A stretch of DNA of 64,000 bases from Lentinula raphanica (Eukaryota; Basidiomycota; Agaricomycetes; Agaricales; Omphalotaceae): the NCBI GenBank assembly GCA_027919835.1, contig JANVFP010000001.1, positions 1,426,001 through 1,490,000 of the forward strand, given 5' to 3'. The notes below the pieces were generated by a model. It ran no database searches, was not told where the DNA came from, and saw only the letters and a list, made by a program, of their open reading frames with translations. Made by a program: the position numbers and the translations under genes. Each line of letters begins with the position of its first letter. The stretch's first letter is position 1. This document shows positions 50,968 to 60,574 of this stretch, piece after piece.

Positions 50968-51327
50968 ATGGCTCAGCCTGCTAGGCTGCAGTCCGTTCAC
51001 ATAAACATTGATACCGTCACAGGATGGCAAAATGATGATCTCCAAAGATTGAAGAATCTCAAGCGTCTGGTAAGTAACCGATAGCTTCGAGCCTTAGCTT
51101 CAACACGTTGTGGCAGTGGCGGTTTTTTCCACACCCCAACTGGTGGTCAAAATTCACTGACACCTCTTCTCTTCCTCTCAAGTTTATGTTCTTTTTGCTG
51201 CAACTGATCATTGTCGCTAGGGCCAGAAAAGTCAACTCTTCCGTGATCATTTTCGTGAACAGCAAGATAATGCGGATAACGCAGGCCCTGACCTGCAACA
51301 AGTTTGGTTGAAAAAGATGAAGAAAAT
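50968..51327 (+). pseudogene. 5' part of FtsJ-like methyltransferase gene, split by the transposon
   Basis: Exons 50968-51069 and 51221-51327. The reading includes GWQNDDLQRLKNLKRLG, FRDHFREQQDNADNAGP and VWLKKMKKI, which resembles the N-terminal helical part of fungal FtsJ-like proteins. The frame then runs 25 nt into the transposon and stops at 51350-51352. The left target copy AAT is 51325-51327. Skipping the element and the second AAT joins this exactly in frame to 57447. Earlier exons upstream of 50968 are possible, so the start is provisional. Confidence 0.7.
51325..51327. other. Left target-site duplication (AAT)
   Basis: AAT directly before the CACTAT terminus, repeated at 57444-57446 directly after the other terminus. 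Three bp is the usual length for CACTA elements. Confidence 0.8.
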
Positions 51328-51358
51328 CACTATAAGCCCAGGACCGGGTTAGGGTAAC
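51328..51358 (+). repeat. Left terminal inverted repeat
   Basis: Begins CACTATAAGCC; shares CACTAT, CAG-region, GACCGGGT.AG and AAC with the right end in inverted orientation. Confidence 0.8.
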
Positions 51359-51588
51359 TTGTATGACGGGTGGGAGTAACCCAGTACCGTGAAACCAAGT
51401 ACTTTAGGGTGAAAGCCCAACGGGTCACAACGGGTTGAAGAGGGTTAAATTTTTTGGTCGGGTTCTTTAACCGAGTTGATTCTAATGGTGAGCCCGTTGA
51501 GTGGGTTATGACCGAGTTAATCTTATCGTGGGCCCGTTGAGCGGGTTACAACCAAGTTAAATTCATAGCAAGTCCACTGAGTGGGTTA
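51359..51588. repeat. Left subterminal repeat array
   Basis: About four degenerate units of roughly 55-60 bp built on GGTTATGACCGAGTTAA and CCGTTGAGTGGG. Subterminal arrays of this sort bind transposase in plant CACTA elements; such a role here is inference. Confidence 0.7.
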
Positions 51589-54500
51589 TTACTCTCCGTT
51601 TACATAGAACGATGATTGTAAAGTACCCGTCCTGTCCACAATATAAGTTTTTTTCCTGTCCATAGCCATGACACGACCAACAAGGCACTGCACGACAGAC
51701 ATATCAACCACCTCGACTGCGCCCATCTGTTCATAATATGGGGCTCCCGAAGAACTTGTACCGATAATTTTGCATCGCTGGATTGCAGCAAGGATATATG
51801 TTGTTTCGGTGTTGGTCTGTAACTCTGCTCCAGCAGATAAAGATACCACGAGGATGTGCCGAAGTTGGCCATAGAAACTCTGCTTCTGAAACTCTGGTGC
51901 AACTGTCCGGCGACGTGCATTCATATCTACAAGCATATCATACTGAGCATGTCACTTGTGAGCAAGAGAATCACTTGAAATTCAAAGGGGAACGTACTCG
52001 AACAAAGGTGGCATCCCGTCGGTCTTCTGCAAATGATGCCATTTCTGATGAGTTCATATCGTCTCCGCCATTGAGACGCCGTACTTTTGCCCACTGCGAA
52101 ATTGAGTCCTTCAATAGATATCGGCGTATGGTTGCTTTCCTAGCATTGAATCGGGTTGCGAAAGATATAAGGATTTTCTCAACAATTGCAGCAGGAATTG
52201 TTGATGATGGCTGCTGTGGTGGAAGGAGGATACAAGAGGGATCTGTATCCCATGGAAAACATCAGCATGTAATCAAGCTGGAACGAATAAAGCAAACATA
52301 CAGTCCACATGTGCAAAGTGTCTTGCAGGAAGCAATGAGCGTGGTATCTTCAGAGAAAGTTCCTCTTCGACGCCATAGATGAGCTTGATTTGTGAGAGTT
52401 GCGCTTGGAGGACGATGTAGTTGTCAATAGCTACAAATGGATGTCGACGGCTCTGGATAGCTGGCTGGAGACGGCCACAATAGCGCTCTGTCGGAAAAGC
52501 CCAATGCGTCCAGACTGGTCCTATTTCTTCGAGTGCATCCGGGATATGCAGTAACCCATGGATAGTCAATGGGCAAGCACTGACTCGTTCTGGGTCATGC
52601 TGATAATAGAGTCTATATAATATGATCAGACCCGTTCCATCCAAGAAAGGAATGTTACGCACTTCTCATAATCTTTGACCCATTCTTGGCATGCTGAACG
52701 AAGTTCCGCCAGTCGTTCCCGTTCAATCTCAAATTGCAGACATGCTTCAACAATAGAGGCCAAACGACAAAAGTGATGATGGTATGAAGATGAGCGGAAT
52801 TGATCCTGAAGGAGGATCGGGCCTAGGTACAGAAGCCAAAATGACCATGTATCCGCTGTTGTTGCCTGCTTGTCCTCTGCAACATTAGGGGGCCGTGCAC
52901 CAAATGCACTTGGGATGGTTGAACCAGAGGCAGATGTTGCACTTCCAATAGCCTCCCAGACCTTGTTATCGAGTTGAAAAGAGCCTGTACCTTCGTCTAG
53001 ATCCTTGAACGAACCTGTCCACCAGAGAACAAGTGATTTCATGATGTTCTCAAACAAGAGATGCATAAAATCGTATGGGAACGAAATGGGAAATGACAAA
53101 GAAGGTAAAGCCATGAGTGCCGGAGTACCCTTGATGCCATACTCGGTCGCGAGTTTCTCGGATTGCGATGAGTTGAGTGCAAACTGTACTTCTTCGGCCT
53201 GGCGTTTCATTTCGGCATGGGTGCGTCGAGGAAGCTGAGCTGCGTCATATATCGGAGTGGAAGATTGAGAGTGATGGGAACGGTGCAGAGGCACATAGTA
53301 GACCTTCCCGTTTGGTGCCTGGACTCCCTGTATGTTACACATCCGACATGGACAAAACCCGTTATGACCTTTCATATGCATAACCATTGAAACAGCGGGG
53401 ATATCACCGAATACGATCACCAGGTAGGCATGAAGGGTGAAGATCTCCTGGGTGCTCACGTCGTATGCTTTTACACCACGTGCAAGTTCAAGGAACTCTT
53501 CGATGGCTGGCCAAATGAATGAGTCGAAATCTTTTGGTTTCTTTGGCCCAGGGATGACACCGATACACAGAATGTATTCGAGATGGAATCGGATTTCTGG
53601 AGGGAGGTTGTAGTTGTAGAGAAGGAGAGGCCAGCAGGTTTTCTTTCGACGCTTCCACGGTGCAAATCCATCGGTAGATAGACCAAACATCACATCGCGC
53701 GAGTCTGAAAAGAAAGTATGAGGATATTCTTGTCCGTCGATGATGACATGCTGCTGGCAGAGTTGCTGATAGTGCGAACCATCCATTATATCACATATTG
53801 GTCCTTCCGGTGAATGCACGTACGAGCCCCGATACTTCAGTTTCTCAGTCATGGCCAGACTTCGGTAGTAGGCGCGGAGTCGAGGTATAATAGGCAGGTA
53901 GGTGAAACGTTTGCGTGGGGTTTTTGTGTTAGGGCGGTACCGACTTTCATGGCAGTATGGACATTGTGTTTTCGAAGCATGAGGCCCCACATAGCAGATG
54001 CAGGAGTTCATACAGCAGTCGTACACCCTGGGAGTAAAGGCAGAGAGTGACCGGGCCTGAGATTTCGTGGACTTCCAGGATTGAAAATTCTCGCTTGGAC
54101 ATGCAAATGGCAGTTTCGCAAATGTATCGTCTGTCATGTGAGTCTCAACTTTCAGGGCAAAGTGACACATGTCTGAGAGCTCGTCCTCCGTGAGCGATTG
54201 GCCTATGAAGTCAATATATATTAGTGGATTGGGAGCAATAAGTTCAAATGAAATGACACACCAGCGTCCGCAAGTTCACGTTCGAGTTGTTCATCAAGAA
54301 GGTCGTCGAGGCTGAGACCCCGGTCAAGATCTAGCGCAGTGTCGAAGTCTGGGACCAAGTCTTCATTATTCATGTCCATGTTCCAATTAACTCCATTCTC
54401 TAGGTCAAGCAACTGATCACCTTCGGGATCAGGATCAGGATCACTGTAGTCTTCATCTTCATCCAGGATATCTTCAATAGACGGAGACCATTTTCGGGTC

Positions 54501-54918
54501 TCCATCATAGCATCAACAGTAGAATGAGCACTATCGATATCAAGACTGGGCTAGTTATGAAAGTGATAGGTGAGTATGGGATTGATTCGGCGATAATATG
54601 AGAACATACTGGTTGCATATCATCGATGCTCTTCTGAGCCCAGTTGCTTTGATCATCACCCTCGCCCTCGGTACCATGCATATTGTCTTCGTCACTGTCA
54701 TATTCTTCAGAATCAAGCATTGTTGCATCTTCGTTGTATGGATCTTTGAAAAGTTTGGAATGCGGATGTTGCGAGTCAGAAAGTTGGGGTACTATTGCGC
54801 CAGCCAGGTGTCGCTCAACGGTTCGGACATGTAGGTTTTTACCACAGTGAGAACAAACAATCTTTTCATTCTGGGGTCGTTTAGTGCGACGAAGATGTTT
54901 GCGGGGAGGTCGAGCCAT
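51589..54918 (-). CDS. Tnp2-family transposase (Transposase_21 type)
   Basis: Six exons (complement): 54610-54918, 54262-54550, 52663-54202, 52302-52612, 51998-52242 and 51589-51942, giving 1,015 aa with no stop or frameshift. The N-terminus is basic and carries a zinc-finger-like CSHCGKNLHVRTVERH, followed by acidic stretches (EDEDYSDPDPDPEGD). Tnp2 landmarks in the core: YDCCMNSCICYVGPH, CPYCHESRY, STDGFAPWKR, HMKGHNGFCPCRMCNIQG, FPYDFMHLLFENIMKSLVLWW and HWAFPTERYCGRL, then RYDMLVDMNARRR. The catalytic domain is expected to be RNase-H/DDE type. It is close to the Plavaka-like elements of Agaricomycetes. The unknown gene starts 195 bp away in the opposite direction, so the two may share a promoter. 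Confidence 0.9.
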
Positions 54919-55113
54919 ACAGGAGTTGGTGAAAGTAAAGACGAGTACGGCGGAAGCAAAATTGGTAATCGCACCAAGCACGGCGCGCGGTCACAAGATG
55001 AGTTATAGGAGTTTGTTGATAGAGATAAGGACAGGATATAAAGGGGAGTGCGCAGGTTTCAGACTTGAACTTAACCTCCATCGCAATCGACCAGACTTGG
55101 CCCAGCACATACA

Positions 55114-56831
55114 ATGCCTGCTACACCTGCTAACACAACACTCAATGATAAGAATATCCGTATGTAAAAGATACGCCTACCTGCTCTCATTTGACGCCGA
55201 CATCCTTTTTAGGTGGAAAGAAGGTCAAACGCGTCGATAATCCAACCATTGACGGGGCAACTGCAGCTCGAGGACACGTTGAAAATTTATCTGAGGCTGC
55301 TGATGGCGCGACTGCAGTTCAAGGCGGCTTGAAACGAAAGGCTACTGCACAGGGTGGTAAGTACTCACATTGGGCAGAGGATCCTATACACTCATAGACG
55401 AAACAGGCACGAAAACCAAGAAAGCTACTCCAGTGGTCATCAAGTCGGCAGCCACCACAGATAAATCTGCGCCTGCTGATGTCCGCGTCCCACTCAAGGA
55501 TGTTACGCGTAAGCCAAATGAGGGTCGTCCTGCGCACGATGGGGTTACGCGTAAGCCAAACGAGGGTCGTCCTGCACACGATGGGGTTACGCGTAAGCCA
55601 AATGAGGGACGTCCTGCGCACGATGGGGTTACTAGCAGCCCTGAGCCTGCGCGGGCTCCCAATGGTAAAGCCCACTTACCTAGCAACACAGAGGGCCCGA
55701 GCGTTGATCTTGAAGCTGAAAAGGCGCGAATTTTCAAAGAAGCTAATGGTTTGACACGAAGTTCTTTTCCGCCACAGTATGACTGAACATTTCTACAGAA
55801 AAGATTAGAGCACTGGAACGTGCTCAACAACTGACCAACTCACCTGCGGATACTCATAATCCCGGCATTCCAAAGACGCCAAAGATAGCTAGCAGGCCCA
55901 CTGTCAAAGATGGTGCTGATAACACCCAGACCTCCGTGCCACCCAAGAAGCAGTGGCCCCCGGTCAGGAAGCATAATCGAGGTATTGTGTTCTATACAGT
56001 GTTCTTCAGCAATCACTGCTAAACCTATGACTTAGGTCAGATCCCAAGCCAATACCTCAACATTCCTAAGCCTGCAGGTGAGACTTGCCTTTGAATTTTG
56101 ACACCATCATTGCACCAACTATAATTCTCAGTAGCGCAACCATCGACTGAGCCCCCGCTTACGATTCAGAGCTTGGATGGGAAAGTCGAGAAGGTTTCGA
56201 AGGACTATGAGCCTATCCTACGTCCTCGTGGTGAAGCAGGAGATGGCAAACGCGGTTTCTGTCTCCAGGAAGCTGTGGAATTGGATGATGGTAGTGTCAG
56301 TAACGATGTGTTTGCCGATTTTCTTGTAAGTCACACTTGTTGATGTGCATGTGATCTCAAAGCTTCGTCTCTTCTTCAAGTTTTTGATCCTCTATCTCAC
56401 TTACACTCACCTTACAGGCGTGTGTCCGTACCAATGCTACATTGGCACGCGTTGATTTGACAAAGACATTTCGCCAACAAGATCCCGACGTTATCTCTTT
56501 GGTCTGTCGTAAGGTATGTTACCCAGATTGTACTCACACACCGGGCTCACAAATATGCATGTAGACTGCGCTCGATATGCCTTACTTTGGGAAACAACAG
56601 TTTCCAGGATACTGGCCAACACGCGAAGCACTCAAGCAATACATCAAAAACCAGCGCAAGTACATGGCACGTCAACGAAAGGCCCGACTTTCCGGAAAAC
56701 GCCAGAGGGAAAACAATCCTTTCCGTGACACCACGATATATCTATCGGATGGTTATGGCGATGATGCTGAGGAAGATGAAGACGACAATGGAGCTGGGCC
56801 TTCTGGCACTCACCACGATGAGGATGATTGA
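55114..56831 (+). CDS. Unknown accessory gene of the CACTA element
   Basis: Eight exons: 55114-55159, 55213-55356, 55398-55748, 55799-55981, 56036-56077, 56132-56325, 56418-56513 and 56565-56831, giving 440 aa, all in phase. The first half is low-complexity and basic, with three tandem copies of VTRKPNEGRPAHDG. The second half looks folded: SLDGKVEKVSKDYEPILRP, FCLQEAVELDDGSVSNDVFADFL, CVRTNATLARVDLTKTF, and a basic RQRKARLSGKRQRENNPFRD before an acidic tail (DDAEEDEDDN). I know no family. A basic region plus acidic tail fits a nucleic-acid-binding helper of transposition, as TnpA is in plant En/Spm, but this is inference from context only. The 41-bp second intron is short. Confidence 0.75.
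55502..55627 (+). repeat. Three tandem 42-bp coding repeats
   Basis: Units at 55502-55543, 55544-55585 and 55586-55627 each code VTRKPNEGRPAHDG and differ by only a few bases. A fourth partial unit (GTTAC) follows. Confidence 0.9.
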
Positions 56832-57412
56832 ATACAAATCACTGGTGCGTTTGAGTGGTCAATGATTTCATCTCCTCACTCAATGACTTTGTATACTAGT
56901 GCTCTTGCCTTCTTGGAATGTGTTCATTGATGTTCCAGAAGATTTGGATCCTCTATGTGCCACCCCTGGTATTGACGCCTTCATATACCATTCTTGCTTT
57001 CTCGGACTGTGTTCATAACTTTCCAGACGATTCAATATCCCTATGTGCTTTAGAATTCTTCAATTCGACTTAACAACCTCGAAGCATAACCTCTTCGGAC
57101 TGCATTCACTATGTTCCCAGACGATTTCTTGATAAACTTCTTGTATAGAGCTGTGTTCGTTTCACTCGGTTTCCAAAGCTGAATATAACCATTTGTATCC
57201 TGATCATGGTGCGCCCTCTGTAAGCTGGTCTGGTGAAAATACCCCGGTGACCTGGTCCAACCAGGTGGAAACTCAACCATGCATCAGGATTAAAAACGGC
57301 ATATATTGGGTAGAAACAACCCTAAACTACCCTACCTAATCCAACCGTAGGACTAGTTAACCTGACCTGCCTTAAGGGTGAAAGCCAACCGTCGAGCGGG
57401 TGAAATTTTCGG
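56832..57412. other. Right non-coding part of the transposon
   Basis: Two or three diverged copies of a block with TTGCTTTCTCGGACTGTGTTC and CCAGA-GATT (56905-57130). GGGT/ACCC-rich subterminal DNA follows from about 57300, including AAGGGTGAAAGCC at 57374, which matches 51411 in direct orientation. No gene. Confidence 0.55.
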
Positions 57413-57443
57413 GTTCATCTCACCCGGTCTGAGTTGCATAGTG
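57413..57443 (-). repeat. Right terminal inverted repeat
   Basis: Read on the minus strand it starts CACTATGCAACTCAGACCGG, the counterpart of the left end. Confidence 0.8.
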
Positions 57444-57446
57444 AAT
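57444..57446. other. Right target-site duplication (AAT)
   Basis: Second copy of the AAT found at 51325-51327. Confidence 0.8.
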
Positions 57447-58453
57447 CATGAATCAGATTGACAACAGCAGAGCCGCAGAGAAGCTCTGGGTGGTTCCATT
57501 TGCTAATAGGCCTTTTAGATTCCTTGATCTTGGGTAGGTGTATCGTTTCTCTAATTCCTCATCCTCTGATTCGTTCTGTTGGATCAATCATTTTTAGATG
57601 TTGCCCAGGAGGATTCTCAACGTATATTTTGAAGAAGAACAAAGAATCTACCAGCGTCGGTGTCTCTCTCGACCCTGCGCAAGGCGGACATCCCTATCTT
57701 CTTGAAGAAGCCCTCCGTCCTCGCCAGACCGTGATCTTCGCTGACATGACTACTTTCCTACTCGGAAGCTCTGAAACACAACTTGAAGTTTCAGATCCAT
57801 CCTTCCAGCTTCATCATGATACGTATCTCACTGCGCACGGCGGGCCACCTCTTATTCCAATTCCCAAGGTTTTACTCGCCCGAGACTTTGACCTTGTCCT
57901 CCTCGACGCTCACCACCTCCGTAACCAAACCAGCAACAGCAACAGTGACCTCCTCGCCATCTCTCAAGTCCTTCTTGCTCTGCTCACCATCAAATTCGGT
58001 GGAACAATCGTGATGAAATTGGCCTCACCAGACACGCAGTACACGGCTACGATGCTTTTTATGTTGGACATGCTCTCGTCTTCGATCCATGTGCACAAGC
58101 CGTATGCGATGCATCGGGTGCAGAATACGTTTTATGTGATCGCTCGTGGGGTGGGAGGTAAGCCTGATCGGAGGCTGTACATGCAGGATGAGGTGATCCC
58201 TGGATTGCGGCGAGTATGGGAGCGTTTGAGACAGAGGGCTGACGTTGAGCGTCAGACCCCTTTGAGTGGAAGGAATCATCCTGGGGGCCAGGGAGGGTTG
58301 GTGATGGGCGATTTGGATTTTATTGTGAATAAGCAGCAACTTGGGGGTTATGGTGAGCGGTTGCATGAATTATGTGCCAGCGTTTGGAAATTGCAGGTTG
58401 AGGCTTTGGAAACACGACTTTCTGAGATGGGGATTTCAACTGATAGCGCATAA
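57447..58453 (+). pseudogene. 3' part of FtsJ-like methyltransferase gene, split by the transposon
   Basis: Exons 57447-57533 and 57598-58453. The SAM-binding motif RFLDLGCCPGGFSTYIL spans the intron, followed by VGVSLDPAQGGH, FDLVLLDAH and a later strand GGTIVMKLASPD, the FtsJ/RrmJ-like Rossmann methyltransferase plan. An ATG at 57448 could start a 313-aa product, but it lacks the N-terminal helical part, which is found in frame at 50968-51327. Joined without the element, the gene would code about 383 aa. Substrate unknown. Whether the remnant is still expressed from transposon sequence cannot be told. Confidence 0.8.
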
Positions 58454-58586: not shown

Positions 58587-60574
58587 ATGTCCATTGAGAA
58601 TACAGCCTTCTCTTCCTCTGGAGAGGAAGTGATAAGTCGTGCTATCCACGTTGAGGTAGACGACACAGCTGATCAACTAAAATCTTCGGCTGAATTCAAT
58701 GCCTTCTATGAAATCGAACGAACAGCAAAAGAAATCGAGGAAGGCAATTTCAAGAGAGTACGTCCCTTGTACTTAGTCTGTTCTCAACAATTCACGTCTG
58801 ATCACACTCAAGGTGGCTCTGCAATTTCCAGATGAACTCCTCCATGACTCTGTTCAGATTTTCCGAGAGCTGAAGCGGAGGATTGGCTCAGATAGAGAGC
58901 TATATGTTCTTGCAGATACATCTTATGGCAGGCAGGCTTTAGTACTTTCTCGCAGAACACACGGTCTCTTCTGACCTCAGTCTCCTTTGGATCTAAAATG
59001 AAGCTGCTGTGTGGATGAGGTGGCTGCGCAACATGTAGATGCAAATGCTCTCGTGCATTATGGTCATGCTTGTATGAGCCAGTGCGTTGATTCCTGCTCA
59101 TCGTTCAAAGCTTCAATTGCTGACCCACTGATTCCTAACCAGGACATATCGACTTCCAGTGATCTATGTTTTCGGAAAGAAACCAATAGACGAAGAAGAT
59201 TGTGTGTCTCGTTTCCTCGAAGTTCTCTCGTCAGCCGAACACGAGTCGAAATTGAGCCATTCTGAGAAAATCGTTTTCCGTCACGACGTCGCATATACAT
59301 ATCGAGCTGGTAAGGTTCAAACCAACTCCTGCCTTACTGAATTTCTGAAAGCTTCCTGCAGCCAACATAGTTGAACGTCTTCGAATGGCTCTAGCGAATT
59401 CCTCACATCAACTCGTTTACACAAGTATACCCCAGAAACTCTTACCTCCGGACTCTCCAGAGAGCATTCGACTCACTTCGGAAGACGTGGTTGCAGACTG
59501 CACAATCTTCTATGTTGGAGAGGAAAGCCTTGGTCTTACAAACTTGTTGATAACACATGCTGCCTGTGACGTTAGCTCTTGTTCTTTCTGGCAAAACCAG
59601 ATACTCATACGGCACCCCTCAAGGTCTTTCAATACTCTCCTTCGTCCAGATCATGTCACTTAGTATCTGGTCGAACGAACAAACTCCTCATGCGGCGATA
59701 CGCTACGATGCAGAAAGGTCGCGATGCAGACGTATTTGGCATCCTCGTAGGGACTCTTGGTGTCGGTGAGCTCCGTCGATCATTACACGAAGAACAACCG
59801 AACCTTAACCTTCCACGAAGCATCCTATCTCCCTTTGATCAAGCATATCCGCAGTCTGCTAGCTGCATCGCACAAAAAGAGCTATACCATCAGTGTCGGC
59901 AAGCTCAACCCAGCCAAACTAGCCAACTTCATGGAAATAGAATGTTTCGTGCTTGTTGCTTGCTCTGAGAATAGTCTCATTGACGCAAAGGTTGATAGTC
60001 TTTCCACCCCTTACCACCACCATATGCTCACGCTTCTTGTCAGGATTTCTATCGTCCTATCATAACACCGTATGAATTAGAGGTGGCATTGCAAGCCGAG
60101 CAAAGCTGGACAGGAAAATATATTCTCGACTTCCAGAAACTACTCGCGGAATATGGTGGGGATAGGAACGCCGTATCTGCTGATGATGATGTTGGCGATG
60201 ATAGAGATGAAGAATCGCCTGTGTTTTCCCTCGTAACAGGAAAGTATCGACATCCAAAGCGATTTGGACCTGCTACTCATTCAGACGAATCGAGTACTAT
60301 GTCTACGTCGACCTCGGCATCTGCTCTAGTTGAACGAAGTAAGGAAAACGCATTGTCATTGCTCAGTAATAGCGCCGCGGGTAAGAACCGTTTGATATAC
60401 GACTGCGAAGCCTTCCTTGATTAATCTATGCATCATCCAGGTCAATATCTGCAGAGCCGAACATATCAAGGTCTGGATCCTCGTTTAGGGCAAGACGCAC
60501 CAAGTGCTTTGGAACAAGGACGGACTGGGATCGCCAGAGGATACGGAGATACCGTGGGTGCTGGACGAACATGA
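58587..60574 (+). CDS. DPH2: Diphthamide biosynthesis protein DPH2
   Basis: Nine exons: 58587-58757, 58813-58931, 59004-59081, 59143-59309, 59362-59570, 59624-59765, 59821-59990, 60044-60380 and 60441-60574, giving 508 aa. DPH2 marks: [127 protein letters not shown] and [16 protein letters not shown]. With DPH1 it makes the radical-SAM-like Fe-S enzyme for the first step of diphthamide on elongation factor 2. Intron 2 needs a GC donor (AG|GCAGGC) to keep the conserved YGSCCVDE. The last exon ends the usual way after [10 protein letters not shown]. Cytosolic. Confidence 0.92.

Follow-up and report, generated by a model that had tools for sequence, protein, structure and literature searches.

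What breaks a methyltransferase gene in two in Lentinula raphanica, a mushroom related to shiitake, how long ago did it arrive, and can it still move? The window analysed here, a stretch of 64,000 nucleotides, contains a gene for an FtsJ-type methyltransferase whose second exon is interrupted by 6116 bp of other DNA. We are very confident that this DNA, here called E1, is an autonomous-looking CACTA (EnSpm) transposon that inserted into a coding exon of the host gene and is young by comparison with the host species. The interruption amounts to a fairly young gene knock-out of an ordinary sort, made by a mobile element of known kind. What makes the case worth recording is the empty allele, together with a candidate TnpA-like partner gene; otherwise it is ordinary.

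The interrupted gene and its empty allele

The host gene lies on the forward strand. Exon 1 (50968-51069) is the same as residues 1-34 of P0001, an L. raphanica protein of 383 amino acids; the left part of the interrupted exon 2 (51221-51327) carries codons 35-69 and two bases of codon 70; the right part (57447-57533) has its first ATG at 57448, which is M71; and the last exon (57598-58453) encodes most of the FtsJ domain, PF01728, which a Pfam scan matches to the open reading frame 57458-58453 at 3.6e-9. Exon 1 and the left part of exon 2 add up to 69 codons and two bases, and reading resumes at 57447, with codon 70 split by E1. The initial annotation had claimed that removing the element would restore the phase, and P0001, which reads straight through the site (...KKMKKI-MNQIDNS..., with no gap), bears this out. 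Over the whole protein, 378 of 382 scored residues are identical and the match is unbroken across the site. The left 69 host residues do not differ from residues 1-69 of P0001, and the right 313 (ATG 57448 to the stop at 58453) differ at four positions (window residue first: S156C, L176F, G180S and T229S), so that the host gene is otherwise undamaged, as had been proposed. Position 229 is S in all ten relatives fetched, judged by eye, which suggests that T229 probably changed on the lineage of the window.

Orthologues lead to the same junction. Our protein search scored the 7999 candidates with the most shared words and gave at least 23 orthologue matches, ten of which were fetched. The initial annotation had named halves that are not contiguous in relatives as an observation that would speak against an insertion; eight of the ten fetched orthologues run through the junction uninterrupted, and the other two, the L. 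detonsa gene models P0003 and P0004, do not contain the junction segment and are uninformative on contiguity. The N-terminal motif KKMKKI is kept in eight of the ten. A distant paralogue in the same genome (L015, 39% identical, C23:12510-13325) is also continuous at the equivalent place, RMKGIFQELDEQ; one TGA lies within this match. At the borders of E1, a search by hand found no GT-AG pair able to yield a contiguous protein from the occupied allele, and the contiguous proteins therefore reflect alleles without E1. By this comparison of sequences, P0001 is the natural empty allele of the interrupted gene.

The methyltransferase gene may be dispensable, because no protein of L. edodes, L. lateritia or L. 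novae-zelandiae is named among the matches listed (at least 23, five without a name) and because four models of the L. detonsa group (P0003, P0004, P0014 and P0015) skip or shift segments, a hint of decay or of annotation trouble. Downstream of the gene, the open reading frame 59757-60065 carries a diphthamide synthesis domain (PF01866).

Boundaries and classification of E1

E1 occupies 51328-57443 and is flanked by a target-site duplication, AAT, at 51325-51327 on the left and 57444-57446 on the right. Its first letters are CACTATAAGCCC and its last letters GTTGCATAGTG; the terminal repeat is perfect for 6 bp (CACTAT) and then imperfect, with 15 of the first 22 positions identical. A search of the genome (49 Mb, 75 contigs) found one other full-length copy, E2, at C14:1250392-1256108, with 72% identity to E1 across 5643 aligned columns. 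The ends of E1 are not a chance match, because E2 has the same end motifs, CACTAT and ATAGTG, and is flanked by a separate 3-bp duplication, TTC. Shared termini in two insertions whose duplications differ settle where E1 begins and ends, and the earlier description of a complete CACTA element with inverted CACTAT ends and AAT on both sides is exact to the base at 51328 and 57443.

The subterminal repeats reported in the initial annotation hold for the left end, where three 22-bp copies, GGGTT-rich and spaced at 40 bp, lie at 51491-51592. GGGTT occurs eight times in the first 300 bp of E1 (both strands) and seven times in E2, and neither count was reached by any of 5000 mononucleotide shuffles. 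They do not extend to the right end, where no GGGTT excess (two in the last 250 bp) and no subterminal repeats were seen.

The EnSpm/CACTA superfamily has maize Spm/En as its type. E1 resembles it in its CACTA-type ends, its 3-bp duplication that varies between insertions, its Tnp2 DDE transposase with C(2)C and H(3)H motifs, its left subterminal repeats and its possession of a second gene; it differs in that no relation between this second gene and any named family was detected and in the shortness of its perfect terminal repeat. Fungal EnSpm elements are described in PMC12730594 as having 5'-CAC..GTG-3' ends and 3-bp duplications. A rival assignment is the fungal Plavaka lineage, which occurs in mushrooms and has a related transposase; according to the same source, its transposases also carry the metal/zinc-type motifs C(2)C and H(3-4)H, and its duplications are 2 bp in PlavakaA and 2-3 bp in PlavakaB, so that duplication length alone is not decisive. 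However, Plavaka termini are given there as TGT..ACA or CATCA..TGATG, whereas both E1 and E2 have CACTAT..ATAGTG, and the Pfam match of the E1 transposase is Transposase_21/tnp2. We consider it extremely unlikely that the transposase came from the Plavaka lineage. Ends, duplication, transposase and motif content place E1 in EnSpm/CACTA and not in Plavaka.

Two other known systems provide a comparison. CNIRT6 of Cryptococcus neoformans is a fungal CACTA element caught moving (PMC12810828); like E1 it inserts into exons (and introns), and its 3-bp duplications are variable, but it has a CACTG end motif and its movement was observed, whereas E1 is known from its letters. CACTA-related elements of fungi were noted already in 2006 (PMC1636069). 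SmTRC1 and the fungal TRC elements of that paper are, like E1, Transposase_21 elements outside plants, with matches in Coprinopsis and Phanerochaete. SmTRC1 also has a second, rapidly evolving protein (SmTRC-PrA) proposed to act like TNPA; unlike in E1, its ends are CCC, its repeat is 54 bp long and its transcripts are alternatively spliced. For the fungal TRC elements, that paper (PMC1636069) did not resolve the ends. Our literature search found no paper with CACTA elements of L. raphanica in its title. E1 offers a clean natural case: the CACTA element is complete, it lies in a coding exon of a mushroom, and L. raphanica also has an empty allele. This combination makes allele frequency, excision footprints and the expression of both genes directly testable.

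The two genes of E1

The Tnp2 transposase gene (51589-54918, reverse strand) has six exons (54918-54610, 54550-54262, 54202-52663, 52612-52302, 52242-51998 and 51942-51589) with GT-AG introns and an open spliced frame of 1015 amino acids. The open reading frame of its largest exon matches PF02992 (Transposase_21/tnp2) at 7.5e-25, above the cut-off. Conservation was read from alignment columns of 44 homologues no shorter than 840 amino acids, drawn from the best 120 of 171 found; strict motif expressions had left 13 of 14 homologue rows with one or more motifs undetected, and the columns were used instead. The residues D377, D466, C485-x2-C488, H731-x3-H735 and E755 are kept in 40, 44, 43, 43, 41, 41 and 40 of the 44, respectively, the exceptions being gaps and one T at the first D. 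With the catalytic D, D and E assigned by position, the predicted protein has D/D/E with C(2)C and H(3)H between the second D and E. PMC12730594 gives D-D-E, C(2)C and H(3-4)H as the pattern of EnSpm and related elements.

Gene 2 (55114-56831, forward strand) has eight exons (55114-55159, 55213-55356, 55407-55748, 55799-55981, 56036-56077, 56132-56325, 56418-56513 and 56565-56831), GT-AG introns and an open spliced frame of 437 amino acids. Comparison with E2 gave the transposase a dN/dS of 0.117 (999 codons, 17 skipped) and gene 2 one of 0.179 (363 codons, 75 skipped), both rough ratios because the synonymous distances, 0.94 and 1.38, are near saturation. Indels agree with the ratios: four of the five in the transposase are multiples of three, the fifth being a 1-base deletion in E2, and so are eight of the nine exonic indels in gene 2, the ninth being 5 bases at the 3' end. 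These rough ratios point to purifying selection on both genes of E1. The earlier view that both genes are intact agrees with their open spliced frames, their GT-AG introns and values of dN/dS far below 1.

Gene 2 is the least explained part of E1. A protein from another L. raphanica record (P0144, EV360DRAFT_76523, on a 5804-bp contig) is 98% identical to it from end to end, with eight substitutions and one missing residue, and fits the same exon joins except for that residue, which is missing at a splice junction. Gene 2 has 13 matches in the genome, all of them in E1 (six), in E2 (five) or beside E3 (two), a further relative described below, and no other was found at E<=0.001. Its conserved core lies around GEAGDGKRGF and EALKQYIKNQRK (11 protein matches, ten aligned). 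No Pfam match was found at 0.1 in the five relatives scanned, and the predicted structure, a poor model (mean pLDDT 49), gave no structural match at E<=0.001.

In plant Spm, TnpA binds subterminal repeats and helps to bring the ends together. By its position, and by analogy with this protein and with SmTRC-PrA, gene 2 may encode a TnpA-like partner that binds the GGGTT-rich subterminal repeats and helps to bring the ends of E1 together, and it is a concrete candidate for the fungal counterpart of plant TnpA. Its purifying selection, its presence with E1, E2 and E3 and the lack of any other match in the genome lead us to raise, tentatively, the further reading that gene 2 founds a new TnpA-like, subterminal-repeat-binding accessory family specific to a mushroom CACTA lineage, although we think this somewhat likelier to be wrong than right.

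Following the known mechanism of the family, we hypothesize a cut-and-paste insertion of E1 into the host coding exon in a Lentinula lineage. The DDE transposase would have cut at the CACTAT ends and joined E1 to staggered target ends, and repair would then have left the 3-bp AAT duplication.

Effect on the host protein

Translation shows that the host frame runs on through codon 70, the third base of which E1 supplies, and closes after seven residues encoded by E1 (TISPGPG), giving a product of 77 residues. The Pfam FtsJ match on P0001 covers residues 78-283, and the 77-residue product therefore contains none of the domain. Could the gene nevertheless work? One way would be for a transcript that starts in or near the right end of E1 to be translated from the ATG at 57448 into a 313-residue methyltransferase without the first 70 residues. 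This ATG is the first after E1, it is in frame, and the FtsJ match of P0001 lies entirely downstream of M71; a restart that would deliver the whole domain is speculative, and we judge a working gene of this kind very unlikely, since the lost N-terminus, with its KKMKKI, is conserved. The other way would be for E1 to be spliced out of the host transcript and a near-normal protein to be made. An AG (CATAG) does end at 57441, and GT dinucleotides occur near the left end, but the frame of exon 2 runs into a stop after TISPGPG, the sole GT before that stop (GTTAGG, which overlaps it) breaks the frame with the acceptor at 57441 when worked out by hand, and all later donors are beyond the stop. A 6.1-kb intron would also be unusual for a mushroom, and we regard splicing of this kind as scarcely credible. 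We retain the reading of E1 as a knock-out of the methyltransferase gene.

Age and mobility

That the insertion is recent, as the initial annotation proposed, is well supported by the undamaged host coding sequence on both sides, the very close allele without E1 and two open genes under purifying selection. It is young only in a relative sense, given the four amino-acid differences from that allele. Present mobility, which had also been suggested, is plausible but unproven, because no near-identical DNA copy of E1 was found in its own assembly. Near-identical copies with different 3-bp duplications had been put forward as a check; none was found in this assembly, where the next full-length copy is E2.

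At least seven DNA matches to E1 were found in the genome, namely E1 itself, four pieces of the one copy on C14, one on C23 and one 99-bp end on C38; Transposase_21 matches occur at 20 places. The transposase of E2 has a 1-base deletion (a frameshift) and an in-frame TGA, and that of E3, on C23, is split by about 3 kb and has a stop in its last part that may be intronic. Searches with the ends alone gave eight matches to the left-end pattern at up to one mismatch, against 11 for the reversed control, and therefore only the three exact ones were used; the right-end pattern at up to three mismatches gave three matches against none for the control, the third being doubtful.

The best sign of recent movement is, at the level of the protein, the 98%-identical P0144 in the other L. 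raphanica record. A single transition could account for each of seven of the eight substitutions between gene 2 and P0144, and for five of the seven the site in the window is a CpG (binomial 0.0004 from opportunity counts). All five have an intact CpG in the window and an implied TpG or CpA in P0144, a direction that is weak in itself (102 opportunities against 87 in reverse; two-sided 0.066). The E2-type protein P0145 agrees with the window at R22, T65 and P161, and at R22 the more distant P0146 shares the residue of P0144. This one-sided pattern in the protein sequence suggests that the P0144 copy is more decayed than gene 2 of E1.

An element intact in its letters may nevertheless be silent. 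E1 might be the one copy to survive, methylated or unexpressed, having entered one lineage some time ago and no longer moving, a reading that is compatible with the insertion itself and qualifies the claim of mobility. Only one intact copy was found in the 49-Mb assembly, the related copies are broken or distant, and CpG observed/expected is lower in E1 (0.82) than in the rest of the window (0.91). Against this, both genes are open with dN/dS relative to E2 far below 1, and the five CpG-type differences, weak as they are, make the window copy look less decayed than P0144. We give silence an even chance. As a clock, CpG decay does not discriminate: the ratio of E1 does not exceed that of the broken E2 (0.84; E3, 0.70), and E1 is therefore not marked as younger by this measure. 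Our preferred reading remains that of a relatively young, autonomous-looking E1.

Two other loci were considered. At C38:412690-412788 lies an orphan 99-bp left end of the E1 family, 74% identical; it was rejected as a solo or miniature element, there being no exact CACTAT on the needed strand within the 7 kb of C38:406500-413500. Another CACTA transposase, on C4 and C19 (99.9% over 3.4 kb), was rejected as a case of fresh movement. The pair is part of an inverted duplication of at least 19 kb (C4:1722000-1741150 and C19:387293-407105, 99.3-99.8%), bordered on one side by repeated sequence, and therefore is no proof of single-element movement; it is either a recent segmental duplication or a very large element.

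In L. edodes, the gene 2 copies P0148 and P0149 show, by eye, several arginine-to-cysteine or arginine-to-histidine changes, as expected from methylated-CpG decay.
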